Shown piece after piece: positions 1,660 to 16,862 of a DNA stretch of 64,000 bases. The first letter of the stretch is position 1; every line of letters begins with the position of its first letter. A model generated the notes under the pieces. It searched no databases. It was not told the DNA's origin and saw nothing but the letters and a program-made list of their open reading frames with translations. This DNA comes from a virus, in the IMG/VR virus record IMGVR_UViG_3300047095_000752, positions 1 through 64,000 of that record. One strand, given 5' to 3'. Made by a program: the position numbers and the translations under genes.

Positions 1660-1882
1660 CGTTCACCTTTGTAAACCATATACATTTTACCGTATACTTT
1701 GATGACCGAAGTCGGTCGACTATAAATTCAATTTTACGCCCAACATTATTTCCAAGTTCATCAGAAATGTCCGTTGTATAAAATAAATAAAATAAAGTCT
1801 TCGCAAATTTTAGAATTAATTGTTCAAGACTACAACATAGTTCGTATATAATAACACTGAGTTTATAATTACACTGCGTCAT
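1652..1882 (-). CDS. Small hypothetical protein, 76 aa
   Basis: I place the start at the ATG at 1882 (MTQCNYKLSV), which overlaps the 3' end of the HD-Pnk gene; a longer frame to 1936 is also open. The N-terminal half is a likely helix (LEQLILKFAKTLFYLF) and the C-terminus is basic. Function unknown. Confidence 0.5.
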   Translation of the reverse strand: MTQCNYKLSVIIYELCCSLEQLILKFAKTLFYLFYTTDISDELGNNVGRKIEFIVDRLRSSKYTVKCIWFTKVNDG

Positions 1883-3074
1883 AACTTGTTTTAAACCATA
1901 TACCATCAAAATTTTCGTTATAAGTAGGTATTTCAATTCTTTTCATAATCTTGAATGTTTCTTCACCTACCGTGTGATCGGTTCGATTACGGTCGTTGAG
2001 TTTACACGTATCTTCATTTAAAATTATAAATGTACATCCTATAGTTACATCTCGATATCTATTCTTCAAATAATTTAAAATGACTCTTCTATTATCTTTT
2101 TTAAGGTTAGTATTACAAACTGCTATTTTATTCCTAAACCCATTTATACTTATTTCGTTATTTATATCTTCAATTAGTAATTGCTCTAATGGTGTATTTT
2201 TCGACAGGCAGTACTCAAATGCTTGTTTGGCGACCTCTTTAGGGTCGTTGAGTATAACTCTTGAGTTTAAATCTGATGATAAATTGTCTTTGAATACTCG
2301 CTCCCGAATTATATCGAATGAAAATATTTTACGGTCAGCCTGAGTTGCTCGGAAATCCTTACCAGATCCGGGTAGACCACAGTAGAACATGATATCTACA
2401 TCGTCCGACGTCAGATTACTTTTAGTATATTTACGTCCGGTGAAATTTATATTAACAACATGTTTAGATTTATGGGAATCGGAGTCTTTGGAAGCTACAC
2501 TTCCCAACTCATCAATTTCTTTGAATAATTTGAATTTATTGTATAGGGAACTCTCATACCTAACCATCTTAGCCAACTTATCGGGTATATTAATTAGATC
2601 GTAGAACACCATATGATTTGACACTAAATCACAAACGTCAACTATAATAGAAGATTGTTTATCGGTATCAACACAGAATTCAGCCAACACATCATACACA
2701 ACATTTGAGGCGTGTTTTGTACTCATAAATGCATGGTTATAGAATGTAACTTTATTATCATCTTTTATTTTTCTGGTAAATACTTTTCCGTAATCGTGAG
2801 TTAAAATTGCAACAGTCATTGTCATCAAATCTTCAACGGATTCAATCTTGATTGTGTTATAACTAAGGTATGCTTTATACGCCCCTAGCATGGCGGTGAC
2901 ATGTGCCCATACATCACCCTCACCGTGCCATGGGTTGTGGTTCACTATAGTTTGACCATCGTATAAATGATGTGAAGTGACTCTCATTTCTTGAACTTCG
3001 GATTCATATTTTTTGCAATAAAAAGAAATTATTTTATTCATATATTTTATGTTTTGTGCGTTTGATGTTGCCAC
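1869..3074 (-). CDS. HD-domain phosphatase / 5'-OH polynucleotide kinase (HD-Pnk type)
   Basis: 401 aa bifunctional RNA/DNA end-healing enzyme. Residues about 45-165 form an HD phosphohydrolase domain, with conserved His residues in a NHNPWHGEGDVWAHV segment and the HD pair in ILTHDYGK (about 91-97). Residues about 230-400 form a P-loop kinase with Walker A GLPGSGKD (about 233-240) and a C-terminal arginine-containing lid (DRNRTDHTVGEE) ending in a YNENFDGIWF segment typical of phage polynucleotide kinases. The known Runella HD-Pnk has this order: the HD domain removes 2',3'-cyclic or 2'/3' phosphates and the kinase phosphorylates 5'-OH ends, making ends ligatable. The start is the GTG at 3074, because AAGGAG lies 6 nt upstream; the longer frame to 3101 would run into the promoter element. 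It has its own phage promoter and follows an RNA ligase gene. A plain HD protein fused to an unrelated kinase is less likely. Confidence 0.85.
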   Translation of the reverse strand: MATSNAQNIKYMNKIISFYCKKYESEVQEMRVTSHHLYDGQTIVNHNPWHGEGDVWAHVTAMLGAYKAYLSYNTIKIESVEDLMTMTVAILTHDYGKVFTRKIKDDNKVTFYNHAFMSTKHASNVVYDVLAEFCVDTDKQSSIIVDVCDLVSNHMVFYDLINIPDKLAKMVRYESSLYNKFKLFKEIDELGSVASKDSDSHKSKHVVNINFTGRKYTKSNLTSDDVDIMFYCGLPGSGKDFRATQADRKIFSFDIIRERVFKDNLSSDLNSRVILNDPKEVAKQAFEYCLSKNTPLEQLLIEDINNEISINGFRNKIAVCNTNLKKDNRRVILNYLKNRYRDVTIGCTFIILNEDTCKLNDRNRTDHTVGEETFKIMKRIEIPTYNENFDGIWFKTSYDAV

Positions 3075-3098
3075 GAAAAACTCCTTAAAGGTTGGATA

Positions 3099-3118
3099 CA
3101 CTATTCAATATATATAAT
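3099..3118 (-). promoter_or_regulatory. Phage promoter motif upstream of HD-Pnk
   Basis: The - strand reads TTATATATATTGAATAGTG, a copy of the recurrent TATATATWWAWTAKTG element. It lies between the stop of the RNA ligase gene (3120) and the ribosome site of HD-Pnk, so the transcript leader would be very short. Confidence 0.65.
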
Positions 3119-3119
3119 G

Positions 3120-4406
3120 CTAATGAGATTCCGTTTGTTCACCAGATCGAATTATGTAAAATACTGATATCAATTTAAATATTTTTCGCATCAAATGTGT
3201 CTTATTGGTTACTGGATCTATATGTTCATATAAGTCATTTTCCAAAGAGCGAACCACAATTCCTTCCCGACCTTTGAATTGATTCTTGTTCAACATACTA
3301 TGGTGCACTAAGGTGGTCGGACCATCTACATATTCTTCAAGGACACCTTCGTAGTACGGACCTTTATATAGACACTTCACACATGGTAAATTAAATGCTT
3401 TTGTATACGATTCTAATATATCGATGTGTTGATATTTACCATTAATTGTAATATCGAAGAATTTATATTCTTTAGCTGTACAACCATAATTCATATCTTG
3501 AACGCCGTTACCATATATTTCACCATATAGAACAATGTCATCACCCCCAGATCCGCCATGTCCCTGTGATATAGATTCTGCGAATCCCCTATTATTATTC
3601 CTAAGATTATACAATAGATCTTTAACTCGTGAATCTAATATCGGTAGTAAATATAGATCGACGTATGGTGTTTCGGCTATGTTAAAAATAGTATTGAAAT
3701 AGGGCACATTATTATATAGAGAATTTATAATTTTACTTTTCCAGCAGTTATTAAATATATTGGTATGGTATTTGAATAAGGTTTTCTTTTTAAATTTTAC
3801 ACTGAATTCTCTAACAATCTTTAACTGAGTGGTATGACTTCCTGCAACAAATTCAAATTTACCTTTAGGGTTCTTAACATACCCCGCCCGGAAGTTTGTA
3901 CCGTGTATTTTCTCAGTTATATAAATCGTTTCACCTCCACTAAAAGCTCCGGGATAATTTCTATAATTTTCAATACCAGTGTAATTCGTGAACGTACCAT
4001 ATTGATTTACGATATACACATTAGAGTCGTACCCAGCAGTTTCATAATTATATGCGTTATAATATTTAGTTTTATCATCACCTACCTTGTCACCGGCTTC
4101 AATGTGTATGGCAAATCCAAAACTGGGTTCCGCCCTTATATTCGCCGCCATTATTCTAACGTGTGTATCAGCCATAACATGCCCCGAAGGGAGTGTCCCA
4201 CAATATTTGGTTATCTCCCATTTATCCGTCCATTCTCTTGGGACTAGACTGTTCGGTGGGAAATATATAATTGGATCATTTACTTTATACTTACCTTTTG
4301 GTACAATTACCCACCACCCATTGATTCGGATCTTCTCTAATAAATCCGCATTTGGGTGTTTTTGTACATCTGATATAGTTTCTACTTTTACAGCAAAAGT
4401 TGACAT
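3120..4406 (-). CDS. RNA ligase, DraRnl (Rnl5) type
   Basis: 429 aa ATP-dependent RNA ligase. The N-terminal ~110 residues look like the OB-fold module specific to the Deinococcus DraRnl/Rnl5 group (start MSTFAVKVETISDVQ, then GWWVIVPKGKYKVNDPI). The nucleotidyltransferase core follows. Motif I is EKIHGTNFR, with the AMP-accepting lysine at about residue 166. A motif III/IV region reads DIVLYGEIYGNGVQ, and motif V reads EGIVVRSL. The family seals nicks bearing a 3'-OH on RNA, using 5'-phosphate ends. The start is the ATG at 4406, 5 nt after AAAGGAAC; the frame upstream to 4433 is unlikely to be used. It sits between the Hen1-ligase fusion and HD-Pnk, whose kinase and phosphatase would prepare its substrate ends. 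It is a second RNA ligase of a different family from the Pnkp-type one at 4784-6982. Confidence 0.88.
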   Translation of the reverse strand: MSTFAVKVETISDVQKHPNADLLEKIRINGWWVIVPKGKYKVNDPIIYFPPNSLVPREWTDKWEITKYCGTLPSGHVMADTHVRIMAANIRAEPSFGFAIHIEAGDKVGDDKTKYYNAYNYETAGYDSNVYIVNQYGTFTNYTGIENYRNYPGAFSGGETIYITEKIHGTNFRAGYVKNPKGKFEFVAGSHTTQLKIVREFSVKFKKKTLFKYHTNIFNNCWKSKIINSLYNNVPYFNTIFNIAETPYVDLYLLPILDSRVKDLLYNLRNNNRGFAESISQGHGGSGGDDIVLYGEIYGNGVQDMNYGCTAKEYKFFDITINGKYQHIDILESYTKAFNLPCVKCLYKGPYYEGVLEEYVDGPTTLVHHSMLNKNQFKGREGIVVRSLENDLYEHIDPVTNKTHLMRKIFKLISVFYIIRSGEQTESH

Positions 4407-4419
4407 GAAGTTCCTTTCT

Positions 4420-4731
4420 TTACCGATATCCATGATTTTGAGTATAAATTTGAGCTACACTTTTCCGGCGAGTATATAACACTTGTGCAATCGGACCTGC
4501 TATATTAGCACTATATGTAACCCCGAGTATTATACTACGAGTGAAATAATTTAATTTTAAAAAACTTAATGTAAATATACGATTTTTATATTTTCGGCGA
4601 CTATTACATCTTGATGTTATACACATATCATTTTTAGATTTTGTTATAACTTTAGACATGAGAAATATTAATTTACGAATTGAACTCAAACATAAGTTTT
4701 TGTCAACCTGCGATAAAATGGATTTATTCAT
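4420..4731 (-). CDS. Small basic hypothetical protein, 103 aa
   Basis: ATG with an AGGAG site, directly after a strong GC-rich hairpin. Strongly basic (Lys/Arg-rich throughout, for example SRCNSRRKYKNRIF). It lies between the two RNA ligase genes, so an RNA-binding accessory role is conceivable, but nothing in the sequence proves it. Its 3' end runs to just before the RNA ligase start. Confidence 0.55.
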   Translation of the reverse strand: MNKSILSQVDKNLCLSSIRKLIFLMSKVITKSKNDMCITSRCNSRRKYKNRIFTLSFLKLNYFTRSIILGVTYSANIAGPIAQVLYTRRKSVAQIYTQNHGYR

Positions 4732-4741
4732 GAGTTCTCCT

Positions 4742-4774
4742 ATGGGCGCGGATCTAATATTGATCCGCGCCCAT
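4742..4774 (-). repeat. 13-bp perfect GC-rich hairpin between repair genes
   Basis: ATGGGCGCGGATC and its exact complement flank a 7-nt loop (TAATATT on the + strand). It lies between the stop of the Hen1-ligase gene and the ribosome site of the next gene. There is no U-run after it on the - strand, so it is more likely an mRNA processing or stabilising hairpin, or an attenuator, than a classical terminator. Confidence 0.7.
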
Positions 4775-4783
4775 CTATTTATA

Positions 4784-6982
4784 TTACAACGTTTTATCGA
4801 CTACACCAACAGAACTCATTCCGAGAAATGCAGCCACATACTTGAGTCTAGTCTCATGCCGATTATTCAAGAATGCATCTAATATTATTTTAGAGCATTC
4901 AAATTCTTGAATAGCAAGTCCACGCTTTTTAGCGACTTGGCGATGTGTTATATTTTTGAAATATTCTTCATTTTCATATAGAGGGAGTCCGTAAGTCAAA
5001 TTTAAATACTTATGTCCCCGGACTTTAAGAGCGGGTTGGATATAATATCCGGATGGTAATACACTTGAAAAATTATTCAATGGTTTATATACAAACCCTT
5101 CGAGTAAAGGTAGATCTGGATATGTATTGAAGGTAAGAGTTTCAGAAGGAGAACTACCGCAACGAGAGAGCCAGTCCAGTGTATTGTTTGCCATATCGTG
5201 TTCATCCGTTATAACGGTATATTTGCATGGCTTTAGTATTTTACAATCATCTGATATGATATCTATGTATTTCATCATATCCAAATTAGACATTGTATAA
5301 CCGTGTATAAGAGATCTTTTATGCTTGGTACCGATAGCAAGTACATGAAATGGTCGAATTTCAATATCAGTTTCTTTAGTAAATTCGTTGAGTGTATTCA
5401 ACACGGTCTCAACATACGCCGTATCCTTACCAGAATGTATATTGGATAGATATTGGGATTCGATTGCTGCGTAGAATTGCTCGTTAAGCATTGTTTTTGC
5501 AGCGTACGACCAAGGTAGAAGCTCAGCATCCAGAATAATAAAGGACACTTCCATCCCGATTTTTTCTTCAAGGGCGCTTATATTTTTTGATATTTCTGAA
5601 TGTAGGACGAGCTTTATATTTTGTTCATCTTCATTCTTGAAAAATTCAAATCCACCACGAGAATTTATTATAAGGGTTTTATCGTACCCTTTTTCTTGAG
5701 CAGCTTCAAAATTCTTAAACCACAATATTTGAGTTCGAGAACCCATATACTTAGTCTGTTGAATTAATTTAGTTACGCCACGCTCTCTGTAGTATTTAAA
5801 CGCACCCAGAGGATGTTCAATATAAGAGTCGAATTGTCCGTATAAAGTTCTATAATAGTCGAGTTTATTTTCTGGAAGTAGATGCTCCTTAAGAGTCTCA
5901 ACCGGAGACACTGTAGGTGCCATGTAAAATATATTCTTCGAGTTACTTATGAATGCACGTGACGTATACCCACGCCCAATTTCCTTCTGAGATACAGAGT
6001 AATCAGACACAGGGAGGTATATGTTACCTTGCATTTTATTCAAATTTTTAAGAGATTTAAAGTCGATCTGTCGTTCAATTTTATTTTTTCGAGGTTTTCT
6101 ATAATCGGTTGTGTCAAGAGTCCATTCGAGAATTCGCTCAGGACTCCATTCGGTTGGATCAACTTGTATTGAAAATATCCTATCTTCAACTTCACCTTCT
6201 TTTGGCGGATATGGTTTTGATATTGTTATCTTGTTATCTATAAGAGATTTATGTGTAGCGAATATACAGAAGGAGGGCTGCATATTCTCAAATTCTTCAG
6301 TCGGTTCTATTATATCAATATATTCAATATTGTATAAGTCGGATAGATAACTAACCACTTCGCGGCTAAATTGGTCTTTTGTGTATTCGACGCAATGGTC
6401 TCGCCGACGGAGGCTACCCGGCTCTATCGAATAGAATTTATTGAATTCAATATTAGGGGTAGTTAGATATAAATACTTCGGTACAAATATGTTTTTAATT
6501 AAATCTAAAATTTTAATACGATCACCATATTCAAAGTGCTCAATAGCTTCCACACAAGTCAATAGATCGGGGAGACAATCGCTTATAGTTATATTTGGGT
6601 ATAGTATATTACTTTCAATTACACGAACTTTATCAGTTGTTTTTATCTTTTTTATTTTATAAAAATCCTTTTCAATTCCAAGGATTCTAAGTTTCGGATG
6701 TTCTTTTACCAACATCTCCAACAGTTTACCTTCGGAAGTACACAGGTCCACCATGTACTCAATTTCAGGCATATCATTGAGTTTATTACATATCAATTCA
6801 TGTCTTTTCTGATGTAACGATATCTTCTTATCAACCAGTTCAGCTACAGATACTGGTGGGGTATATCCAAATTCTTGCTTAAATTTTTGCTTTAATGTTT
6901 TGTTATCTTGACAGAATTTGTTCATAATCATAGAGAAGTTTTTAGAATATCTTCTAACCGTAGTTGAATCGTTATCCGACAT
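4784..6982 (-). CDS. Fusion: Hen1 3'-terminal 2'-O-methyltransferase + Pnkp-type RNA ligase
   Basis: 732 aa RNA-repair fusion. Residues about 60-250 match the bacterial Hen1 methyltransferase: SAM-binding VDLCTSEGK (about 78-86), metal-binding EAIEH (about 145-149), TTPNIEFN (about 174-181) and RRRDHCVEYTKDQF (about 192-205). Hen1 methylates the 2'-OH of the 3' end at an RNA break before sealing. Residues about 310-732 match the ligase domain of bacterial Pnkp: APTVSPVET upstream, then motif I TKYMGSR (nucleotidyl lysine about 411), LDAELLPWS, LEGFVYKPL, and a QPALKVRGHKYL motif V with a KKRGLAIQEFE segment near the end. The kinase and metallophosphatase domains of normal Pnkp are absent, and so is the usual N-terminal half of Hen1. 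Both appear to be supplied by separate genes here (HD-Pnk and 6972-7610). I use the ATG at 6982, 6 nt after AAGGAA; ATG at 6988 is the alternative. It overlaps the upstream gene by 11 bases. Confidence 0.88.
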   Translation of the reverse strand: MSDNDSTTVRRYSKNFSMIMNKFCQDNKTLKQKFKQEFGYTPPVSVAELVDKKISLHQKRHELICNKLNDMPEIEYMVDLCTSEGKLLEMLVKEHPKLRILGIEKDFYKIKKIKTTDKVRVIESNILYPNITISDCLPDLLTCVEAIEHFEYGDRIKILDLIKNIFVPKYLYLTTPNIEFNKFYSIEPGSLRRRDHCVEYTKDQFSREVVSYLSDLYNIEYIDIIEPTEEFENMQPSFCIFATHKSLIDNKITISKPYPPKEGEVEDRIFSIQVDPTEWSPERILEWTLDTTDYRKPRKNKIERQIDFKSLKNLNKMQGNIYLPVSDYSVSQKEIGRGYTSRAFISNSKNIFYMAPTVSPVETLKEHLLPENKLDYYRTLYGQFDSYIEHPLGAFKYYRERGVTKLIQQTKYMGSRTQILWFKNFEAAQEKGYDKTLIINSRGGFEFFKNEDEQNIKLVLHSEISKNISALEEKIGMEVSFIILDAELLPWSYAAKTMLNEQFYAAIESQYLSNIHSGKDTAYVETVLNTLNEFTKETDIEIRPFHVLAIGTKHKRSLIHGYTMSNLDMMKYIDIISDDCKILKPCKYTVITDEHDMANNTLDWLSRCGSSPSETLTFNTYPDLPLLEGFVYKPLNNFSSVLPSGYYIQPALKVRGHKYLNLTYGLPLYENEEYFKNITHRQVAKKRGLAIQEFECSKIILDAFLNNRHETRLKYVAAFLGMSSVGVVDKTL

Positions 6983-7610
6983 CTTCATTTCCTTCGTCGA
7001 GCCAAGTTTTAGAGATTGTAATTAATTTATCAACAAATGCTTCATGTGCTGTATATATTCCACCGCGCCGGATAGTCAAAAATAACGATAATACATATGC
7101 CTTCTGTATGAATTCCGATGTCGTCATAGCTTCTTTTGGATTTAATTTCAACATAAAGCACGAACGCATTTCAATCGTCGATTCAACACTTGATGCATTA
7201 ATGTTGTAATCATCAAATAGCTTTACCGAGAATTCTAAGTCGTTCACAATCGGACCAATTATTATTTCTTGATTTTGCGTTTTTTGAAAAAATTGTTCGT
7301 CGGTTATATCACCTTTCGGTGGTCGTCCCGCGATGCAAGACCGTAGGGTTTCCCATAGTGCTTTTAGATGATACGGACATGCTGCAGCAACTTCTGAATT
7401 CAAATAGAAATCTAAATTCAATTGTCGTGCAACTTTTAAGAATTGCATATCATCTAATTCGGTTTTAATTTCATATTGCGTATCTACCCCGTTGACGAAT
7501 TGACCCGTGAATTTAAGTCCACGCAGGTCCTGTTCAAATGGGGGAGAATTTGGATTCTTAACTAATATATAAGATAAATGTGGTATATCACTTTTTATTG
7601 AAAAATACAT
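6972..7610 (-). CDS. Stand-alone Hen1 N-terminal domain (Pnkp ligase activator)
   Basis: 212 aa. Bacterial Hen1 has an N-terminal half that activates the Pnkp ligase and a C-terminal methyltransferase. This protein resembles that N-terminal half along its length: HLSYILVKNPNSPPFEQ near residues 11-27, a middle GRPPKGDITDEQFF segment, and a closing KLNPKEAM…FIQKAYVLSLFLTIRR…EAFVDKLITISKTWL stretch that matches the Hen1 pattern of a basic-hydrophobic helix pair ending the domain. It ends by overlapping the Hen1-methyltransferase/ligase fusion, so the two could act as a complex equivalent to a split Hen1. The match is by memory of the family, not alignment. The ribosome site AAAGGG overlaps the end of the DNA ligase gene. 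Confidence 0.72.
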   Translation of the reverse strand: MYFSIKSDIPHLSYILVKNPNSPPFEQDLRGLKFTGQFVNGVDTQYEIKTELDDMQFLKVARQLNLDFYLNSEVAAACPYHLKALWETLRSCIAGRPPKGDITDEQFFQKTQNQEIIIGPIVNDLEFSVKLFDDYNINASSVESTIEMRSCFMLKLNPKEAMTTSEFIQKAYVLSLFLTIRRGGIYTAHEAFVDKLITISKTWLDEGNEDVG

Positions 7611-7611
7611 A

Positions 7612-9603
7612 TCAACCCTTTCCTATTCGTTCCAAAAATTCATCTTCAGATATAATTGTAATACCCTTAGATGCGGCTTTGGCTAACTTTGCCCCGGCAT
7701 TCTCACCGACTACAAGAAGAGTAGTCTTTGACGTTACCGATTTATCAACTTTACCACCGTTCTCCAAAATGAGTTCGTGGATACGGGGGCGGGGAGTGAA
7801 CAAGACCCCTGTCACACAAACCAGTTCACCAGCGAAGGCGTCCGATTTTGCTACAGTATTCATAGTCTCATTTTCATCAACTTTCATGTTAAATCCATAA
7901 GATACAAGATCTAATATAAGCTTTTCATTTTTATATTCTCTAAACCAATTATAAATACTATTTGCAACAACATCACCAATTCCATCTATAGACTTTAAAT
8001 CTTCTACTTTCTGAGATCTTAATGTTTGAATATCCTTGAATGTATTTGCAAGAAGAGAAGATGTTGTTTTACCAGTATTGGGAATTTGTAACCCAGCTAA
8101 TACTTTTTCAAATGGCATATTTTTTGATTTTTGAATGCTATTATATATATTTTTAGAAGACTTTTCAGCCATACCGTCGAGTTGGCAAATATCATCCGGT
8201 GTCATATCATATAGATCTATTATGTTATGAATCATATTTGCATCATACATTTTATCAACTATAGCGTCACCAAGACCATCAATGTCCATCACATCTTTGG
8301 ATGCCCAGTATAACACTTTACCTACGATTTTTCCAAGACAATCTGGATTCTGACATATAAGAGCTACATTATCATTATCATTAGCAACATCAAAACAACA
8401 TACCGGACATAATTCTGGTCGTTCAAATTTTTCCAAATTTTTCCCAATACGATTTTCCATGTTAACATATAATATCTGAGGGATAATTTCACCGGCTTTT
8501 TTAATACCGACAATATCTCCGATTCTTATATCCAGTTTCTCTACTTGATCAAAATTGTGGAGAGAAGCCTTAGCTACAACGGATCCACATATCTCAACAG
8601 GTTCAAGTATAGCTACCGGAGTCAGTGCGCCGGACTTACCAACCTGAACATCTATGTTCAATACTTTAGTTTCTTCAATTTCTTCTGCATATTTATAAGC
8701 GACTAACCATTTCGGGTGACTTGATGTATCTTTGAATTTAGAGCGACTTGCTATATCATTTATCTTAACGACAACACCATCAACCGGGTACGGAAGTGTA
8801 GTTTTATTTGCACCAAATTTATCAATAACAGATTTTAAGTTATCACCACCATTTACAATTTCATACTCGGGAGTCTTAAACCCAAGATCTTTTATTGTGC
8901 TTAATACTTGAAATTGATTTGTTAAGCCATGTTGTAACGGATCAACGATATCATATGCTATCATTGATAATTTACTTTGTTTCGATATTTTTGAATCTTT
9001 TCTTTTCAATGCTCCGGCGGCTGCATTTCTTGGATTTGCTAATAATTGTTCACCATTCAATTTTTTGTTACGATTTAATCCTTCAAATACTTTAAATGAC
9101 ATATATACTTCACCACGAATTTCAACGATATTATTCATACTATTAGGAATACTTAATGGAACTCCATTAATAACTTTTACATTTTCAATAACATTTTCAC
9201 CGATAGTTCCATTACCCCGAGTGAGAGCTTTAGTCAAAATTGAATTTTCATATATCAATGATATAGCCAACCCATCGATTTTATACTCAACCGAATATTC
9301 ATCTGATACTAATTTTGATTTTTTAGTAAATGAGTCCAATTCTTTAACCGAATATACCTTTTCTATACTCATCATCTTTTTAGAATGTTTTATTTTTTCG
9401 AATTCACTTACAGGGTCAGAGCCAATTCGTTGGGATGGAGAATCTGATATATAAGCACTGGGGTTATTTCTCTCATATTCAAGTAATTGATTGAACTTTT
9501 TATCATATTCTTCATCTGATATAATTGGATTAGAATCGTTATAGTATAAACAACTGTGTTTGTTCAACTCACTCTTAAGACTGCAGTACTCTTGGTTTGT
9601 CAT
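7612..9603 (-). CDS. ligA: NAD+-dependent DNA ligase
   Basis: 663 aa, close to the bacterial LigA length, with the full domain order. The N-terminal Ia region has YNDSNPIISDEEYD. The adenylation domain has motif I EYKIDGLA (lysine near residue 108). An OB fold follows, then a four-cysteine zinc finger (CPVCC…CQNPDC), helix-hairpin-helix repeats (QLDGMAEKSS, SIDGIGDVVANS) and a C-terminal BRCT domain (LVCVTGVL…ENGGKVDKSVTSKTTLLV). It seals nicks in DNA using NAD+. The start is the ATG at 9603 (MTNQEYCSLK) after AAGGAA; the longer frame to 9654 runs through a terminator. It is the first gene of the leftward repair block. Strong hairpin terminators isolate it from the GC-rich gene upstream. Confidence 0.95.
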   Translation of the reverse strand: MTNQEYCSLKSELNKHSCLYYNDSNPIISDEEYDKKFNQLLEYERNNPSAYISDSPSQRIGSDPVSEFEKIKHSKKMMSIEKVYSVKELDSFTKKSKLVSDEYSVEYKIDGLAISLIYENSILTKALTRGNGTIGENVIENVKVINGVPLSIPNSMNNIVEIRGEVYMSFKVFEGLNRNKKLNGEQLLANPRNAAAGALKRKDSKISKQSKLSMIAYDIVDPLQHGLTNQFQVLSTIKDLGFKTPEYEIVNGGDNLKSVIDKFGANKTTLPYPVDGVVVKINDIASRSKFKDTSSHPKWLVAYKYAEEIEETKVLNIDVQVGKSGALTPVAILEPVEICGSVVAKASLHNFDQVEKLDIRIGDIVGIKKAGEIIPQILYVNMENRIGKNLEKFERPELCPVCCFDVANDNDNVALICQNPDCLGKIVGKVLYWASKDVMDIDGLGDAIVDKMYDANMIHNIIDLYDMTPDDICQLDGMAEKSSKNIYNSIQKSKNMPFEKVLAGLQIPNTGKTTSSLLANTFKDIQTLRSQKVEDLKSIDGIGDVVANSIYNWFREYKNEKLILDLVSYGFNMKVDENETMNTVAKSDAFAGELVCVTGVLFTPRPRIHELILENGGKVDKSVTSKTTLLVVGENAGAKLAKAASKGITIISEDEFLERIGKG

Positions 9604-9660: not shown

Positions 9661-9738
9661 TATATCACAGGGGATGCTGCTGATGTTTATATTTTGTTTT
9701 TATTTTTGGGATATATGTATCAAAGACTGTATGGGATG

Positions 9739-10740
9739 TCAGTCTTCGGCATTCAACTTTTTATGTTGCCCGATCTTGGGGACGTTGAAACCCAAGTCGG
9801 TCAGGAGGGCACCCATCGCGGAGTGTCCCTCGTAGCGAGATGCACCCTTCGCGACCGCGCCCTCATCCATGCGGGTCGCAATCATGCGACGCCACACGGC
9901 GAACATCGCAGCCAGTTGCTGCGACTGGGCGGTGACAAATACCCCGGTGTCCACCACAATGCTGGTGGTGTGGTGGTAATTGCCCTCCAGCCATGGACGC
10001 GAACGCCATGCGTTGGGATCGAGATCCCAGCCGCAGTTACTGTACATGGCGGGCACGTACCCTGCCGCCTTCATGAACGCATCCGAGCCGTGCTGCTCGT
10101 ATGCCTTCAAGACCCAACCCGCGTGACCGGAGATGACAGACATCTCCTCAACATGGTGAGCCATGTTGCGGTGGTCATTGAACGACTTCATGATGTTGAG
10201 GCGTTCCTTCCAGTTCGCCTTGATGGCGACTTGGTACGTGCAGTGCGCTGCACAGCGCACTCGGAAGGACATGACCTGCCCATCCGCGCTGAACTCTCCC
10301 CGCATGATGGGGGAAGACAACGTCCGCTGGGCGTTGTCCGGTTTCGTGTAGACCACACGCATCTGCTGCTGCAGATGCCCCGCACCGGCGGGGATGGACT
10401 CGGGAAAGCGAGACCGGTGCGGATCAAGCTGCCACCCGTTCGCTTCCACGAACTCGTGGAGCTTCCTGTCGTATTGACACGACAGCAACTCCGCCGGGAT
10501 GATGGGGTAGTTCTTCAGAACCACCTCTTCCGCCACAGCGTTGAACTCTTTCTTGGTCAGCTTGTACTGACCATCACTGTTGTGCGCCACCTTTCGAATG
10601 GCATGGCTGGACACCGGGTCCAACGCCACGTTGTCGAAGGCGAGCACCGTATCCGACAACGGGCTGAACGTCAGTCCGTGGTGGGCGATGTCTGCTTCGG
10701 GCGTGTTGTTGATTGCGTCCATCAGATTGTTGAATTGCAT
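9739..10740 (-). CDS. GC-rich hypothetical protein, 333 aa, single-gene unit
   Basis: The ATG at 10740 (MQFNNLMDAINN) follows AGGAG by 9 nt; the frame is open to 10773 but that start is not supported. A phage promoter motif lies about 62 nt upstream and a strong terminator about 80 nt downstream, so it is a single-gene transcription unit, probably made in quantity. Base composition and codon choice (GCC, GGC, CTG, CGC) differ sharply from the AT-rich neighbours. I recognise no domain. The protein is mixed alpha/beta in look, soluble, with several His and Trp and no signal peptide or membrane helix. The composition could mean recent transfer or codon adaptation to a GC-richer host. A long antisense frame over the same bases exists but lacks start signals. 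Confidence 0.75.
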   Translation of the reverse strand: MQFNNLMDAINNTPEADIAHHGLTFSPLSDTVLAFDNVALDPVSSHAIRKVAHNSDGQYKLTKKEFNAVAEEVVLKNYPIIPAELLSCQYDRKLHEFVEANGWQLDPHRSRFPESIPAGAGHLQQQMRVVYTKPDNAQRTLSSPIMRGEFSADGQVMSFRVRCAAHCTYQVAIKANWKERLNIMKSFNDHRNMAHHVEEMSVISGHAGWVLKAYEQHGSDAFMKAAGYVPAMYSNCGWDLDPNAWRSRPWLEGNYHHTTSIVVDTGVFVTAQSQQLAAMFAVWRRMIATRMDEGAVAKGASRYEGHSAMGALLTDLGFNVPKIGQHKKLNAED

Positions 10741-10801
10741 GCTTAACATCTCCTGTAAAGATTTTACCGACACATAGAATCTATCCCATAAGATTCTTTT
10801 A

Positions 10802-13571: not shown

Positions 13572-13647
13572 TGGTACGAACGGTGTGAATCGAACACACG
13601 ACTCAGAGTATATAAGACTCCGCTTCTCACCACTGAATTACGTTCGC
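13572..13647 (-). tRNA. tRNA-Ile(UAU), copy 1
   Basis: Cloverleaf seen by eye. The acceptor stem is GCGAACG/CGTTCGT and the anticodon stem is GGAGT/ACTCT around loop CTTATAT, giving anticodon UAU, which reads AUA. The T-arm is GTGTG-TTCGATT-CACAC, and a discriminator A plus CCA is encoded. A related copy lies at 16787-16862. AUA appears common in the genes here, so this tRNA would supply a codon usually read by lysidine-modified CAU tRNA. Confidence 0.85.
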
Positions 13648-13690
13648 ATAAAAATAGGTGGGGAGGCTATCCTTTATGACAGACTCCCCA

Positions 13691-13767
13691 TGGTGATCGC
13701 GGTGGAATTCGAATCCACACTGTAAGATTTTTAAGATCTTTGCCTCGACCAGTTGGGCTACGCGACC
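13691..13767 (-). tRNA. tRNA-Leu(UAA) with a short variable loop
   Basis: The acceptor is GGTCGCG/CGCGATC, the anticodon stem is AAGAT/ATCTT around loop CTTAAAA (anticodon UAA), and the T-arm is GTGGA-TTCGAAT-TCCAC, with CCA encoded. The variable loop is only 5 nt (ACAGT), whereas bacterial tRNA-Leu normally has a long variable arm. The amino acid identity is inferred from the anticodon only. Confidence 0.75.
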
Positions 13768-13785
13768 ATTATTAAACTTTCTAAA

Positions 13786-13862
13786 ATAACCCGACAGGAC
13801 TTTCACCTGCAGTTCGTAACCATTTAGTAGGAGTGTGTTTAATATTTTCACCACGGGTTATT
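13786..13862 (-). tRNA. Divergent tRNA-like element
   Basis: The size and ends fit a tRNA: a perfect 7-bp acceptor (TAACCCG/CGGGTTA), a short D-arm (GTG…CAC) and a 5-bp T-stem (GCAGG/CCTGT). The T-loop is TGAAAGT rather than TTCRAAT, the anticodon arm cannot be paired cleanly, and no CCA is encoded. It may be a degenerate tRNA or a non-translating tRNA mimic. Confidence 0.45.
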
Positions 13863-13864
13863 CT

Positions 13865-13937
13865 TGAGAATGACTGGATTTGAACCAGCGACACGACGAT
13901 GACTTTCGTCTGCTCTACCAGACTGAGCTACAATCTC
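13865..13937 (-). tRNA. tRNA-like element, possibly Asp(GUC), with 6-nt anticodon loop
   Basis: The acceptor is GAGATTG/CATTCTC (one mismatch), the D-arm GCTC/GAGC is good, the anticodon stem GACGA/TCGTC is perfect and the T-arm GCTGG-TTCAAAT-CCAGT is canonical. The loop between the anticodon stem strands is AAGTCA, six bases without U33; GUC would be the anticodon. CCA is not encoded. Confidence 0.55.
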
Positions 13938-13973
13938 AATAGTTTTAATAGAGAATTAACTCTATGTTTTTGA

Positions 13974-14048
13974 TGGCTCTAGGGATTCGAGTCGAACGAA
14001 TAACGGGGAATTTAACAGATTCCTGCTCTCCCATTGAGCTACCCTAGA
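13974..14048 (-). tRNA. tRNA-Asn(GUU)
   Basis: The acceptor is TCTAGGG/CCCTAGA, the D-arm is GCTC/GAGC, and the anticodon stem GGAAT/ATTCC encloses CTGTTAA (anticodon GUU). The T-arm is ATTCG-TTCGACT-CGAAT, with a discriminator G and encoded CCA. Confidence 0.9.
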
Positions 14049-14058
14049 AAAGTTTTAT

Positions 14059-14760
14059 TCAAATATGAGACCACGTTTTTCTTTGAATTATTTTTTTAAT
14101 GTTATTATCGCTAACATTAAACATTTCACCTAATTTAACATAATTCTTTATTTCTGGGTATAACTTACGTATTTCTAATACTTGTTGTTTGGTGAGTTTG
14201 TTTGATATATAATTTGGATTGCCTTTTCTAGAGATTTTTTCTTTCGGCGGTATAGGTTCCCAGTGTAAATGTTTCCATCTTCTATTGTTAACAACTTCAC
14301 ATATAGTGCGTTGACCGACACCAAATAATTTACTTAATTTTTTCTGTGATATGTTATTGTTATTGTATATTTTTCTTATTTCTAATACTTGGTTATCGGT
14401 TAATCTAGAGCTTTTGCTATCTATACCTACGGCGTGGGTAATTAAATTATTTTTATGCGCATGTGTATTATTTTCTTTGACCGTACACCATTCTAGATTT
14501 TTGAGATCATTATTTGATTTATTACAATCCATATGATTTACAACGGCATCTTCGAACCAAGAGTCTGGATTAAAAGCGAACATTAGTAACCGATGGACCC
14601 GTAATTTTCTTCTTTTTGGTTTTAATGCTAAATGAACTGTATAATATCCACTATCTAAACTTGCTTTAACAAATTTACCACTATCATTATTCCGAACTCG
14701 ACCTAAATTACTAATAGAATATTTATCGGTTAAATGACAATCTCTCCAAATTTCTTCCAT
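14059..14760 (-). CDS. HNH homing endonuclease with NUMOD4-like N-terminus
   Basis: 233 aa. It starts with a NUMOD4-like segment (EIWRDCHLTDKYSISNLGRVRN). An HNH nuclease core follows (VHRLLMFAFNP, VVNHMDCNKSNNDLKNLEW), then two repeated helix-turn-helix-like segments (LTDNQVLEIRKIYNN and LTKQQVLEIRKLYPE) that would read DNA. Freestanding endonucleases of this kind move between phage genomes by cutting a related site. This one is inserted inside the tRNA array, between tRNA-Asn and tRNA-Arg, in the same direction. Confidence 0.88.
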   Translation of the reverse strand: MEEIWRDCHLTDKYSISNLGRVRNNDSGKFVKASLDSGYYTVHLALKPKRRKLRVHRLLMFAFNPDSWFEDAVVNHMDCNKSNNDLKNLEWCTVKENNTHAHKNNLITHAVGIDSKSSRLTDNQVLEIRKIYNNNNISQKKLSKLFGVGQRTICEVVNNRRWKHLHWEPIPPKEKISRKGNPNYISNKLTKQQVLEIRKLYPEIKNYVKLGEMFNVSDNNIKKIIQRKTWSHI

Positions 14761-14789
14761 ATATGATCCAATGCTACAATAAAAAATAA

Positions 14790-14866
14790 TGGTGCCAACA
14801 ACTGGATTTAAACCAGTAACTTACGATTTAGAAGATCGTTTCTCTATTCAATTGAGATATGCTGGC
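14790..14866 (-). tRNA. tRNA-Arg(UCU)
   Basis: The acceptor is GCCAGCA/TGTTGGC, the D-arm is TCTC/GAGA, and the anticodon stem ACGAT/ATCGT encloses CTTCTAA (anticodon UCU, reads AGA). The T-arm is ACTGG-TTTAAAT-CCAGT, and CCA is encoded. Confidence 0.88.
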
Positions 14867-14883
14867 ATAGAAAACTTAAAAAG

Positions 14884-14956
14884 ATATGGTGGTATGAATT
14901 ACACATACCGTCACACGGACCCGATGTCCGGTGTTTTATCCTTAAACTAACCATAT
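14884..14956 (-). tRNA. Divergent tRNA-like element with 13-bp acceptor/T helix
   Basis: The acceptor ATATGGT/ACCATAT is perfect and the D-arm GTTT/AAAC is good. The T-stem has six pairs (GGTATG/CATACC) around a non-canonical TGTAATT loop, so the acceptor plus T helix is 13 bp rather than 12. The anticodon loop CATCGGG lacks U33. No CCA is encoded. Anticodon and identity cannot be assigned. Confidence 0.45.
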
Positions 14957-14964
14957 CTAAAATT

Positions 14965-15042
14965 TGGAGCAGCGCCACTGACTTGCACAATGGATCATCC
15001 AACTGGAGTGCTGGATGGTTTTACTATTAAACTACGATCTGC
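14965..15042 (-). tRNA. Divergent tRNA-like element with no normal anticodon loop
   Basis: CCA is encoded and the outer acceptor pairs are good (GCAG/CTGC), but the inner ones mismatch. The D-arm GTTT/AAAC is good. The T-arm is CATTG-TGCAAGT-CAGTG. The anticodon arm is ATCCA/TGGAT around a 10-nt loop that can itself pair (ACT/AGT). Identity cannot be assigned. Confidence 0.4.
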
Positions 15043-15053
15043 ATTGTAGATTC

Positions 15054-15440
15054 AATTGTTTCGGTCCCTGAAGACTTCTGGACCGACTTCACCATATGAC
15101 CGGGTAACTACGATGTCGGTATGTTAGCGACTCCGTCTACGCGACCGTCTTCGTGTGTATAAATAGTAGCATACCTCAAAAGCCCAAGTCAAGAGGTTTC
15201 TAAAATTTCACTTACACTGGTGAATCCGAACTGAGTTATAAATGGGAAAAAGCATCCGAAACCCGTTTACACACACTCAGCCATAATTTATAAGAGTACC
15301 GGTAAACGCAAGGCATTTACATCCCCGGTACTCCAAACCAAGCCACGTAGCTCAGTAAAGTCAAATAAAACATCGGGTATACCATAAAGTATACCCGATG
15401 GCTTCGCACCGATAGGGTACGAAAAATCCCACCAAGCCCA
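15054..15440 (-). ncRNA. Unidentified structured RNA segment in tRNA unit
   Basis: No convincing frame covers this stretch, but it carries strong hairpins. One is TCGGTCC…GGACCGA at about 15055-15083. Another is a GGTATG/CATACC-closed element at about 15117-15177. A GAGTACCGG…CCGGTACTC hairpin with a second internal stem lies at 15294-15333, and a perfect 12-bp CATCGGGTATAC hairpin at 15371-15400. It lies within the leftward RNA unit between the promoter near 15661 and the terminator near 13530, so it should be transcribed. None of the folds matches an RNA family I know. Confidence 0.5.
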
Positions 15441-15477
15441 CATGCGCTCCATGATGTTTATGATGGGATCAAAAAGG

Positions 15478-15640
15478 TACCCGGATATCGGATTTGAACC
15501 GACGATCCACCTCTATCTATAGTTCGAGGTGACCCCTAGCTTCTATCAACACCTCATGTGACTAGCAAGGGTGTCTTCAAGATTCTTGTCTGACGTTCGG
15601 GAAGTCACTCCTTATATCAGACTCCTTTAGGACCGGGATA
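15478..15640 (-). ncRNA. 163-nt closed RNA with a tRNA-like T-arm end
   Basis: The two ends pair as an acceptor-like helix (TATCCCGG with CCGGGTA, one bulged base). Next to the 3' strand is a textbook T-arm, GTCGG-TTCAAAT-CCGAT. Instead of D and anticodon arms, the interior holds several hairpins: GTCTGA/TCAGAC, a GACACCC…GGGGTC pairing, and ACCTC/GAGGT. This is the topology of a tRNA-like domain with a large insert, as in tmRNA, but I see no clear tag frame and no encoded CCA. It is the first RNA after the promoter motif at 15661-15681. Alternatives: a tRNA with an intron, or a tRNA-derived regulatory RNA. Confidence 0.45.
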
Positions 15641-15660
15641 GTTTAAACTTAAACTGTATA

Positions 15661-15681
15661 CAATATTTAATATATATAATA
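15661..15681 (-). promoter_or_regulatory. Phage promoter motif of the tRNA array
   Basis: The - strand reads TATTATATATATTAAATATTG and abuts the stop codon of the VWA gene. The leftward unit downstream is entirely RNA genes plus one homing endonuclease. Confidence 0.7.
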
Positions 15682-16263
15682 CTAAGCTCGTAAAGAAGCT
15701 ACACTAGCACTCATACTAGCGTATGCCGAGCGGGTTCCAACAGATGTAGGATCGTACTGTACAGTGTTATGAGTTTTGATCCCAAGACCACTACCAACGG
15801 CAAATGCGTCGATATTTGCGCCGGAGAAAATAAATTGCCAGTTGTATACTTCTTCTTGATGTGTGATTTTATTTTTAATATCATTCAATGTGAAATGACG
15901 ACTTGCATTTTCGTCACCATCTGTAATAATACAAATGATAACTTTTTCAGGTCTCTCTGGTTCCGGTAGTTTATTCAAATATACACCAATGTGATCTACA
16001 GTCTTTCCAATAGCATCGAATAAAGCTGTATACCCATTAGGTTGATAATTTTCTTTACTTAATAGTTCACAACTATTTAGATTTTCTACTTCACCGATAT
16101 CAACTTGAGTATCAAATATAGTTTTAATAATTTGAGCGGTTCCGGGTATTTTTCTTTGATCTTCAATAAGTGAATTATACCCGCCAATCGCATCATCTGT
16201 TAAAGAATGCATTGATCCGGACTTATCAACAATCATTCCAATTAGAGTATGGTCTTTCTTCAT
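15682..16263 (-). CDS. VWA domain protein
   Basis: 193 aa, a single von Willebrand factor A domain. The MIDAS metal site is visible as IVDKSGSMHSL (about residues 11-21), with later partners (NGYTALFDAIGKT near 79-91, and CIITDGDENAS). Such domains bind metal-dependent protein partners; stand-alone phage copies have no fixed function. The ATG follows AAGGAA. Upstream is a host-like sigma70 promoter rather than the phage motif, which suggests early expression. Confidence 0.85.
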   Translation of the reverse strand: MKKDHTLIGMIVDKSGSMHSLTDDAIGGYNSLIEDQRKIPGTAQIIKTIFDTQVDIGEVENLNSCELLSKENYQPNGYTALFDAIGKTVDHIGVYLNKLPEPERPEKVIICIITDGDENASRHFTLNDIKNKITHQEEVYNWQFIFSGANIDAFAVGSGLGIKTHNTVQYDPTSVGTRSAYASMSASVASLRA

Positions 16264-16305
16264 TGTGTTGTTCCTTGTGTGTTTTGTTGTTAGTTGCTTA
16301 TATGG

Positions 16306-16334
16306 ATTGTATCACATGATTTGTAGATTTGCAA
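16306..16334 (-). promoter_or_regulatory. Sigma70-like promoter for the VWA gene
   Basis: On the - strand TTGCAA (16334-16329), a 17-nt spacer and TACAAT (16311-16306) match the bacterial -35/-10 layout. It lies about 45 nt before the VWA start codon. Confidence 0.5.
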
Positions 16335-16377
16335 GTGGATTAAAATAACTTTACTATAATTTTCATTATTATTTACT

Positions 16378-16410
16378 ACAAAAAAGAATGGCTTTGCTAG
16401 AGCCATTCTT
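16378..16410 (-). terminator. Terminator after 53-aa gene
   Basis: The - strand AGAATGGCT…AGCCATTCT hairpin is followed by TTTTTTG; it closes the unit starting at 16686-16706. Confidence 0.8.
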
Positions 16411-16448
16411 CCAACCATTCTTTCTAACCTAACTATACAACCGGCGAA

Positions 16449-16610
16449 CTACAACCGGCGACCCTTCTCCAGCGCCTTCTCCAGTTCTTTTTCGCGATTA
16501 GACCCCCATTTTTCCTCCCTCAAATTCCTGCAAAAGGCGTCGCGCTGCGCCTTTTCTTCGTCCCGCCGCTGTTCGTTCCGCGCCTTTTCTTCATCTGCAC
16601 GCTCTGACAT
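16449..16610 (-). CDS. Small highly charged coiled-coil protein, 53 aa
   Basis: Starts MSERADEEKARNEQ with AAAGGG upstream and is almost entirely Glu/Lys/Arg/Gln/Ala, so probably one long charged helix. It forms its own unit, with a phage promoter before and a terminator after. Codon use is GC-rich (GCG, CGC, GAG), like the 9739 and 11652 genes. Function unknown. Confidence 0.6.
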   Translation of the reverse strand: MSERADEEKARNEQRRDEEKAQRDAFCRNLREEKWGSNREKELEKALEKGRRL

Positions 16611-16685
16611 TTTTATACCCTTTCATCGTTTGTTTATAATATCTCAGTTCACATGAGCCGAGGATATCGAATAACTTCATGATAG

Positions 16686-16706
16686 CACTAATTAATATAT
16701 ATAATT
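16686..16706 (-). promoter_or_regulatory. Phage promoter motif for the 53-aa gene
   Basis: The - strand reads AATTATATATATTAATTAGTG. A leader of about 75 nt separates it from the start codon. Confidence 0.65.
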
Positions 16707-16737
16707 AAATACTATATAATATAAACTAAAAATAGAT

Positions 16738-16778
16738 CAAAAAATAAACCATTATAACTTGTTAGGTTATAATGGTTT
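16738..16778 (-). terminator. Terminator of the second RNA unit
   Basis: The - strand AAACCATTATAAC…GTTATAATGGTTT hairpin is followed by ATTTTTTG. It ends the unit carrying tRNA-Ile copy 2 and the structured RNAs. Confidence 0.8.
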
Positions 16779-16786
16779 ACGAGTAT

Positions 16787-16862
16787 TGGTAGACCGTGTA
16801 AGAATTGAACTTACGACTCCGTGTATATAAGACGCGGCTTCTAACCACTGAATTAACGGTCC
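16787..16862 (-). tRNA. tRNA-Ile(UAU), copy 2
   Basis: The acceptor is GGACCGT/ACGGTCT and the D-arm is nearly the same as copy 1 (TAATTCAGTGGTTAGAAG). The anticodon stem CGCGT/ACACG (one mismatch) encloses CTTATAT (anticodon UAU). The T-arm is GTAAG-TTCAATT-CTTAC, and CCA is encoded. It is the last element of its unit, directly before the terminator. A diverged duplicate of 13572-13647. Confidence 0.82.

Follow-up and report, generated by a model that had tools for sequence, protein, structure and literature searches.

Rearranged Hen1 and Pnkp domains in a jumbo phage form a putative RNA repair-and-protect module

The stretch of DNA analysed here (hereafter, the window) covers the initial 64 kb of a virus record that is 245,225 bases long and comes from a jumbo phage with genes for terminase, baseplate, and phage RNA polymerase beta. 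Read 5' to 3' on the minus strand, the locus encodes an NAD+-dependent DNA ligase, a stand-alone Hen1 N-terminal domain protein (hereafter, Hen1_N), a Hen1 methyltransferase (MT) fused to a Pnkp-type ligase (MT-ligase), a second RNA ligase, and a two-domain healing enzyme, HD-Pnk (Table 1). All ORFs named in a sequence-only reading of this DNA are present and intact on the minus strand, but that reading had missed the second RNA ligase, an RlaP gene further along the genome, and the relatives described below. The likely gene starts have also moved, to position 3074 for HD-Pnk (a GTG preceded by the Shine-Dalgarno AAGGAG), 4406 for the second RNA ligase, 6982 for MT-ligase, and 9603 for the DNA ligase. 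A single nucleotide separates the DNA ligase stop codon from the Hen1_N start codon, and the Hen1_N ORF overlaps that of MT-ligase in a different frame; because of this spacing and overlap, the three genes very probably form one transcription unit. A 377-nt gap (4407–4783) lies between MT-ligase and the two downstream genes, and an Rfam search covering this gap and the rest of the first 20 kb gave one chance match and otherwise just the tRNAs located farther on.

Table 1 Features of the locus and its surroundings (window coordinates).
Feature	Position	Strand	Basis and remarks
HD-Pnk: N-terminal HD phosphohydrolase and C-terminal P-loop polynucleotide kinase	1869–3074	minus	hhalign to RM378 PNK
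Second ATP-grasp RNA ligase, Rnl2/Rnl5-like	3120–4406	minus	PF09414 4.7e-15, PF21189 3.8e-8, phrog_968 5e-27
Hen1 methyltransferase–Pnkp-type ligase fusion (MT-ligase)	4784–6982	minus	First in-frame ATG 6988; likely start 6982
Pnkp/Rnl-type RNA ligase domain, aa 346–734	4787–5953	minus	PF16542, motifs, Foldseek 4e6n_A
Predicted adenylylated lysine K413, motif I TKYMGSR	5750–5752	minus	Invariant column K94, alignment A1
Disordered linker between MT and ligase, aa 254–302	6083–6229	minus	pLDDT <50, AF2 model
Hen1 2'-O-methyltransferase domain, aa 52–235 (from 6988)	6284–6835	minus	phmmer 3jwi, alignment A3, Foldseek 3jwi_B
Stand-alone Hen1 N-terminal (ligase-activating) domain protein, 212 aa	6972–7610	minus	Pfam, AF2 and Foldseek
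Shine-Dalgarno GAAGGAA inside the Hen1_N gene end, before ATG 6982	6989–6995	minus	Duplex -4.0 kcal/mol, normal spacing
NAD+-dependent DNA ligase	7612–9603	minus	PF01653 7e-72, phrog_3869 1e-184; likely start 9603; directly upstream of Hen1_N
Six tRNA genes (Ile, Leu, one without assigned type, Asn, Arg, Ile)	13572–16862	minus	ARAGORN, Rfam tRNA

Several other features of this genome were recorded. ARAGORN assigns a two-base anticodon (gt) to one tRNA gene (13864–13938), which Rfam also matches as a tRNA at 48.7 bits; this may be an odd anticodon loop or a misfold. The 344-aa ORF at 9739–10773 has no family match, and the opposite strand carries a 350-aa ORF (9694–10746). At least two sets of RNA polymerase beta-subunit genes are present (window 55285–57993; G000:121443–124070), as in phiKZ-like jumbo phages. 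According to one review, jumbo phages of group 1 encode RNA repair less often than those of groups 2 and 3.

Based on Pfam, Hen1_N matches PF22032 (E = 8.3e-8), which passes the curated cut-off, and it is ~30–36% identical to the N-terminal domain of its nearest fused relatives. Its AF2 model, computed from 25 sequences (the window and contigs), has a pLDDT of 88. When this model was compared to the PDB using Foldseek (E ≤ 1e-3), six chains were found, all of them Hen1 (best match 4e6n_B: E = 7e-10, TM 0.73; 4drf_B [Hen1-N] was also among the matches), in agreement with the earlier proposal that a separate Hen1 activator protein is encoded here.

The adjoining MT-ligase product matches the PNKP_ligase family (PF16542, E = 8e-42) and the Clostridium thermocellum Pnkp ligase 3ty8 (phmmer, E = 2e-23), and its residues 52–235 match the Hen1 methyltransferase 3jwi (phmmer, E = 4e-12). 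The best folds of its AF2 model (pLDDT 85) are a Pnkp ligase/Rnl (4e6n_A, 6e-22) and a Hen1 MTase (3jwi_B, 2.6e-11). All of these searches agree with the original claim that one polypeptide joins the two enzymes, and the structural comparison places its N-terminal domain within Hen1 and its C-terminal domain within Pnkp ligases, against both structural grounds for refutation named in the sequence-only reading. The kinase and metallophosphatase of bacterial Pnkp are absent from this chain, the N-terminal half of which is the Hen1 MT, and the window has no single ~460-aa Hen1 chain, Hen1_N and MT lying in separate overlapping ORFs. Among 12 phage and plasmid sequences, the nucleotidyl-transfer columns of the ligase (K/E/E/K/K; motifs KxMGSR, E, EGxxxKP, KxR) and the metal-binding ExxEH...H residues of the MT (E147/E150/H151/H198) are invariant.

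The SAM motif I of the window MT reads DLCTSEG, as compared to DLGCGEG, with GCG found in nearly all other aligned sequences, so methylation in the window could be weak. The same deviation would fit a methyltransferase half that is structural, with RNA being repaired without a mark. We regard this alternative as quite improbable, given that the MT retains the metal-binding motifs ExxEH and RRDH as well as TTPN, and that motif I also varies among the clade relatives (DLGFSEG, DVGTSEG, DYGCANG), in which the D and the last G are constant; because the relatives vary there too, the clade appears to tolerate change in this motif.

In bacterial Pnkp, a flexible insertion domain keeps the ligase blocked until Hen1-N takes hold of it and the pocket opens (PMC4411300). 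Alignment, rather than superposition, places this Hen1-N-contacted insertion between motif III (LDxExxPW) and the PFHxLA strand, a stretch that spans 52–60 residues in the measured members of the clade of fused and split proteins, as compared to 72–78 residues in plasmid Pnkp and 76–107 residues in the separate ligases of cultured phages. The shortened insertion suggests an altered gate in this clade, and because of it the activation step may differ in the window.

To place the fusion, IMG/VR was scanned with alignments and the ORFs of matching contigs were then searched (a scan of IMG/VR with a single sequence gave no match). Chains that combine Hen1_N, MT, and ligase were found in several contigs (L013/L014: 877 aa; L015: 870 aa, with a weak Hen1_N part; L016/L017: 833 aa; L038: 884 aa), and more distant single-chain fusions in two others (L018: 809 aa; L057: 871 aa). 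The sole cellular case in a scan of genome contigs was an 848-aa chain (L084) in a Falkowbacteria MAG (Patescibacteria), a phylum in which one of 380 genomes carries the fusion; read by eye, its neighbours are RtcB, archease, and a recombinase. The region L084:245–7665 (site-specific recombinase, RtcB, archease, and Hen1-ligase fusion) has the appearance of an RNA-repair island in a reduced bacterium. In the maximum-likelihood trees of both the ligase and the MT, the window groups with L013, L015, L016, L038, and L084 in one clade (support 100/98 in both), and L018 and L057 branch elsewhere and may be independent fusions, although their branches are long. An RNA polymerase beta subunit is shared, at 50% identity, by the L013 phage and that of the window. 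One candidate (L043:3024–3906) was set aside; in it, a Hen1_N start runs into the C-terminal end of a ligase, the part between being absent and the frame changed, and it looks like an internally deleted or decayed copy or a misassembly. In L013 (1076–3571), a helicase ORF is seemingly interrupted by an intein-like insertion, as judged by eye.

Because the window and the five fused proteins form one clade, the separate activator of the window looks like a secondary split. In the simplest history, a single fusion occurred at the base of the clade and Hen1_N separated later from a single Hen1_N-MT-ligase chain; it would now be translated from a gene that overlaps, and is translationally coupled to, that of MT-ligase. 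The earlier idea of a separate activator holds for the stand-alone ORF, but this ORF is probably derived from such a chain and is not an original separate protein. We found no second example of the split, and its occurrence in one metagenome record, together with the single ORFs of all five clade relatives, might point to a sequence error, the true product being one Hen1_N-MT-ligase chain. The junction itself makes such an error distinctly unlikely. The conserved W and the next conserved helix are ~9 residues apart in the fused relatives that have the W (e.g., W-IMDCPIKN-MIVNK in L013), as compared to 73 nt (24.3 codons) in the window, and the ~46 extra nt rule out a one-base frameshift or sequencing error. 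In addition, a Shine-Dalgarno sequence and a +1-frame start codon precede the Hen1_N stop codon, and, 11 codons upstream, the MT frame is closed. Ribosomal bypassing of the T4 gene 60 type was also considered (Hen1_N ends in GGA-TAA) and was set aside, with no matching landing codon seen and no RNA structure (z = 0.38); because no RNA structure is found at the split, translational coupling is the plain explanation.

HD-Pnk matches weakly in Pfam (HD: 0.035; AAA_33: 0.0027). Using hhalign, however, its family was found to be clearly homologous to the kinase/phosphatase of Rhodothermus phage RM378 (probability 98.5%, E = 1.7e-15), and the HD motif (H102, D103) and the P-loop (G242..K248, GLPGSGK) are invariant in alignment A5, which confirms the identity first assigned to this gene. 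For the RM378 enzyme, 5'-kinase and 3'-phosphatase activities are reported, as cited in PMC1997131, and we infer 5'-kinase and 2',3'-phosphatase activity of HD-Pnk from such characterised homologues. The second RNA ligase combines a PHA02142 OB domain with PF09414. An RlaP nucleotidyltransferase gene lies at ~188 kb in the window genome and resembles the L013 copy by eye; NADAR was looked for in this genome and was not found.

The role of HD-Pnk as a partner of the fusion, which the sequence-only reading had assumed, gains support from two independent phage lineages in which the two genes lie close together. In L013, the fusion, NADAR, HD-Pnk, and RlaP all occur within 6.5 kb, and in L016, HD-Pnk lies 3 kb upstream of the fusion, with an Rnl1-like ligase downstream. 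The L015 and L038 records carry RlaP too. No HD-Pnk was found in either of these or in L057; two of these three records are short. A tblastn search of plasmids with the L013 HD-Pnk gave no match. In phages without Hen1, HD-Pnk often adjoins a T4 Rnl1-like ligase, which makes it a general partner of ATP-grasp ligases in end healing; in the window, it may serve both ligases or mainly the adjacent second RNA ligase. Many phages pair HD-Pnk with such a ligase, HD-Pnk directly adjoins Rnl in the window, and the L016 phage has an Rnl1-like ligase nearby too, all of which would also suit two side-by-side modules, one of HD-Pnk and an OB-type RNA ligase (T4/Deinococcus style) and one of Hen1_N and MT-ligase, the latter using another healer or ends that need none. 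We consider this arrangement unlikely, because the fusion is the sole RNA ligase gene seen near HD-Pnk in L013, and because a single healing enzyme can feed both ligases.

The Hen1-N, Hen1 MT, and Pnkp ligase folds of the bacterial Pnkp/Hen1 system recur in the window, which is predicted to share all its activities and the use of Hen1-N as the ligase activator; in the window, no kinase-phosphatase-ligase Pnkp exists, the ligase is fused to MT, Hen1 is split, and healing would fall to HD-Pnk. The domain assignments of the sequence-only reading hold, as does its view that the same activities have been redistributed. As in the Capnocytophaga gingivalis Pnkp1-Rnl-Hen1 complex (PMC4411300), the window ligase is free of kinase and phosphatase, the healing enzyme is separate, and Hen1 would be needed; in that complex, however, Rnl and Hen1 are separate and Pnkp1 is T4-Pnkp-like, whereas MT and ligase form one chain in the window and HD-Pnk would heal. 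A putative Pnkp1-Rnl-Hen1 set is also found in Borgs (PMC11208441). When 50,697 deposited phage records were searched with four queries, a Hen1 plus Pnkp-type ligase pair was found in only five phages (Xanthomonas phage XacN1, Stenotrophomonas phages RAS14 and CM1, and Vibrio phages RYC and vB_VpaM_sm033), and in none of these five is Hen1 fused to the ligase. In XacN1, RAS14, and CM1, Hen1 (Hen1_N and MT) lies beside a Pnkp-type ligase that, unlike the one in the window, is unfused and branches elsewhere in the tree; XacN1 and RAS14 have a small P-loop kinase as neighbour. The two Vibrio phages have two adjacent genes (RYC L002:11965–15182; vB_VpaM_sm033 L003:4766–8175), one encoding a Hen1_N-MT-kinase-HAD phosphatase chain (717–726 aa) and the other a separate ligase; this other kind of fusion carries just a 'polynucleotide kinase' annotation. 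HD-Pnk enzymes of the RM378 and Deinococcus DRB0098 type share the order of HD phosphohydrolase followed by P-loop kinase, but no Hen1 is annotated in the RM378 region inspected. T4 Pnkp-Rnl1 likewise combines phage healing and sealing against an anticodon nuclease, but without a methylation step and with another ligase family and a HAD-type phosphatase. Parts of the window fusion also match the folds of Pnkp-like and Hen1-like proteins of giant viruses of eukaryotes in BFVD (Hokovirus A0A1V0SF21/A0A1V0SF26; Yasminevirus A0A5K0UC33/A0A5K0U9Y2).

The statement in the sequence-only reading that no phage system of this form had been described must be narrowed. The occurrence of Hen1 with a Pnkp-type ligase in phages is already known, XacN1 ORF197/ORF198 having been annotated in 2018 as a Hen1 and PNKP pair (PMC5852040). 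The Hen1-ligase fusion clade with HD-Pnk appears to be new within the material searched: we found no description of a Hen1-ligase fusion in the open-access literature, and the fusion itself was found in just one bacterium and a small set of phages that are uncultured.

Taken together, the genes, domains, and evolution of this locus are real, intact, and well supported, and a repair function is probable. We put at roughly two in three the probability that it is a phage RNA repair-and-protect module built from Hen1 and Pnkp parts that heals, methylates, and seals, with activities, substrate, step order, and counter-defence role drawn from characterised homologues. In this proposed working, a host ribonuclease would cut tRNA in the infected cell and leave 2',3'-cyclic phosphate and 5'-OH ends; HD-Pnk would take off the cyclic phosphate and phosphorylate the 5' end, and a lost nucleotide would possibly be restored by RlaP. 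The terminal 2'-OH would be methylated by the Hen1 methyltransferase, and the attached Pnkp-type ligase would seal the RNA once switched on by the separate Hen1_N protein. The 2'-O-methyl at the junction would stop recutting, because transesterifying nucleases need that 2'-OH. In the bacterial complex, the MT site is proposed to receive the 3' end before the ligase does, and SAM speeds ligation at least tenfold (PMC4411300). Repaired tRNA that carries the Hen1 methyl group withstands colicin D, but about half of the repaired RNA is methylated even though ligation needs Hen1 (PMC4411300), and the claim that the fusion guarantees methylation before sealing does not stand on this evidence.

A role of the module in anti-defence is plausible, and RNA repair in jumbo phages has already been read as counter-defence (PMC7824862). 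Bacterial Pnkp-Hen1 has a broad substrate specificity (PMC4411300), which would accord with a module that protects or processes phage or host RNAs generally (3'-end 2'-O-methylation, damage by the phage's own nucleases) and does not counter immunity. We judge this general role rather unlikely, because a ligase, a healing enzyme, and RlaP are the combination with which jumbo phages usually repair tRNase damage (PMC7824862), and because this phage supplies tRNAs as well. For the Hen1-ligase clade as a whole, we tentatively propose, at a little under even odds, a distinct mark-and-seal enzyme (with the activator in cis or coupled, a shortened insertion, and HD-Pnk and RlaP as partners) that serves counter-defence in jumbo phages.

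Known phage answers to tRNA-cutting defences are the provision of tRNAs and plain repair, and plain repair leaves the tRNA open to renewed cutting. If the heal-methylate-seal reading is true, host tRNAs would be left immune to the nuclease that cut them, and, by methylating as it seals, such a phage enzyme would give a single repair event lasting effect. The fusion would also offer a simple one- or two-chain system for the question of how sealing is coupled to methylation in the Pnkp-Hen1 field. A 2016 review of RNA-repair systems reportedly stresses their modular shuffling. In phages, repair domains appear to be freely shuffled, giving Hen1_N-MT-ligase chains, MT-ligase with a separate activator, and Hen1_N-MT-kinase-phosphatase with a separate ligase.
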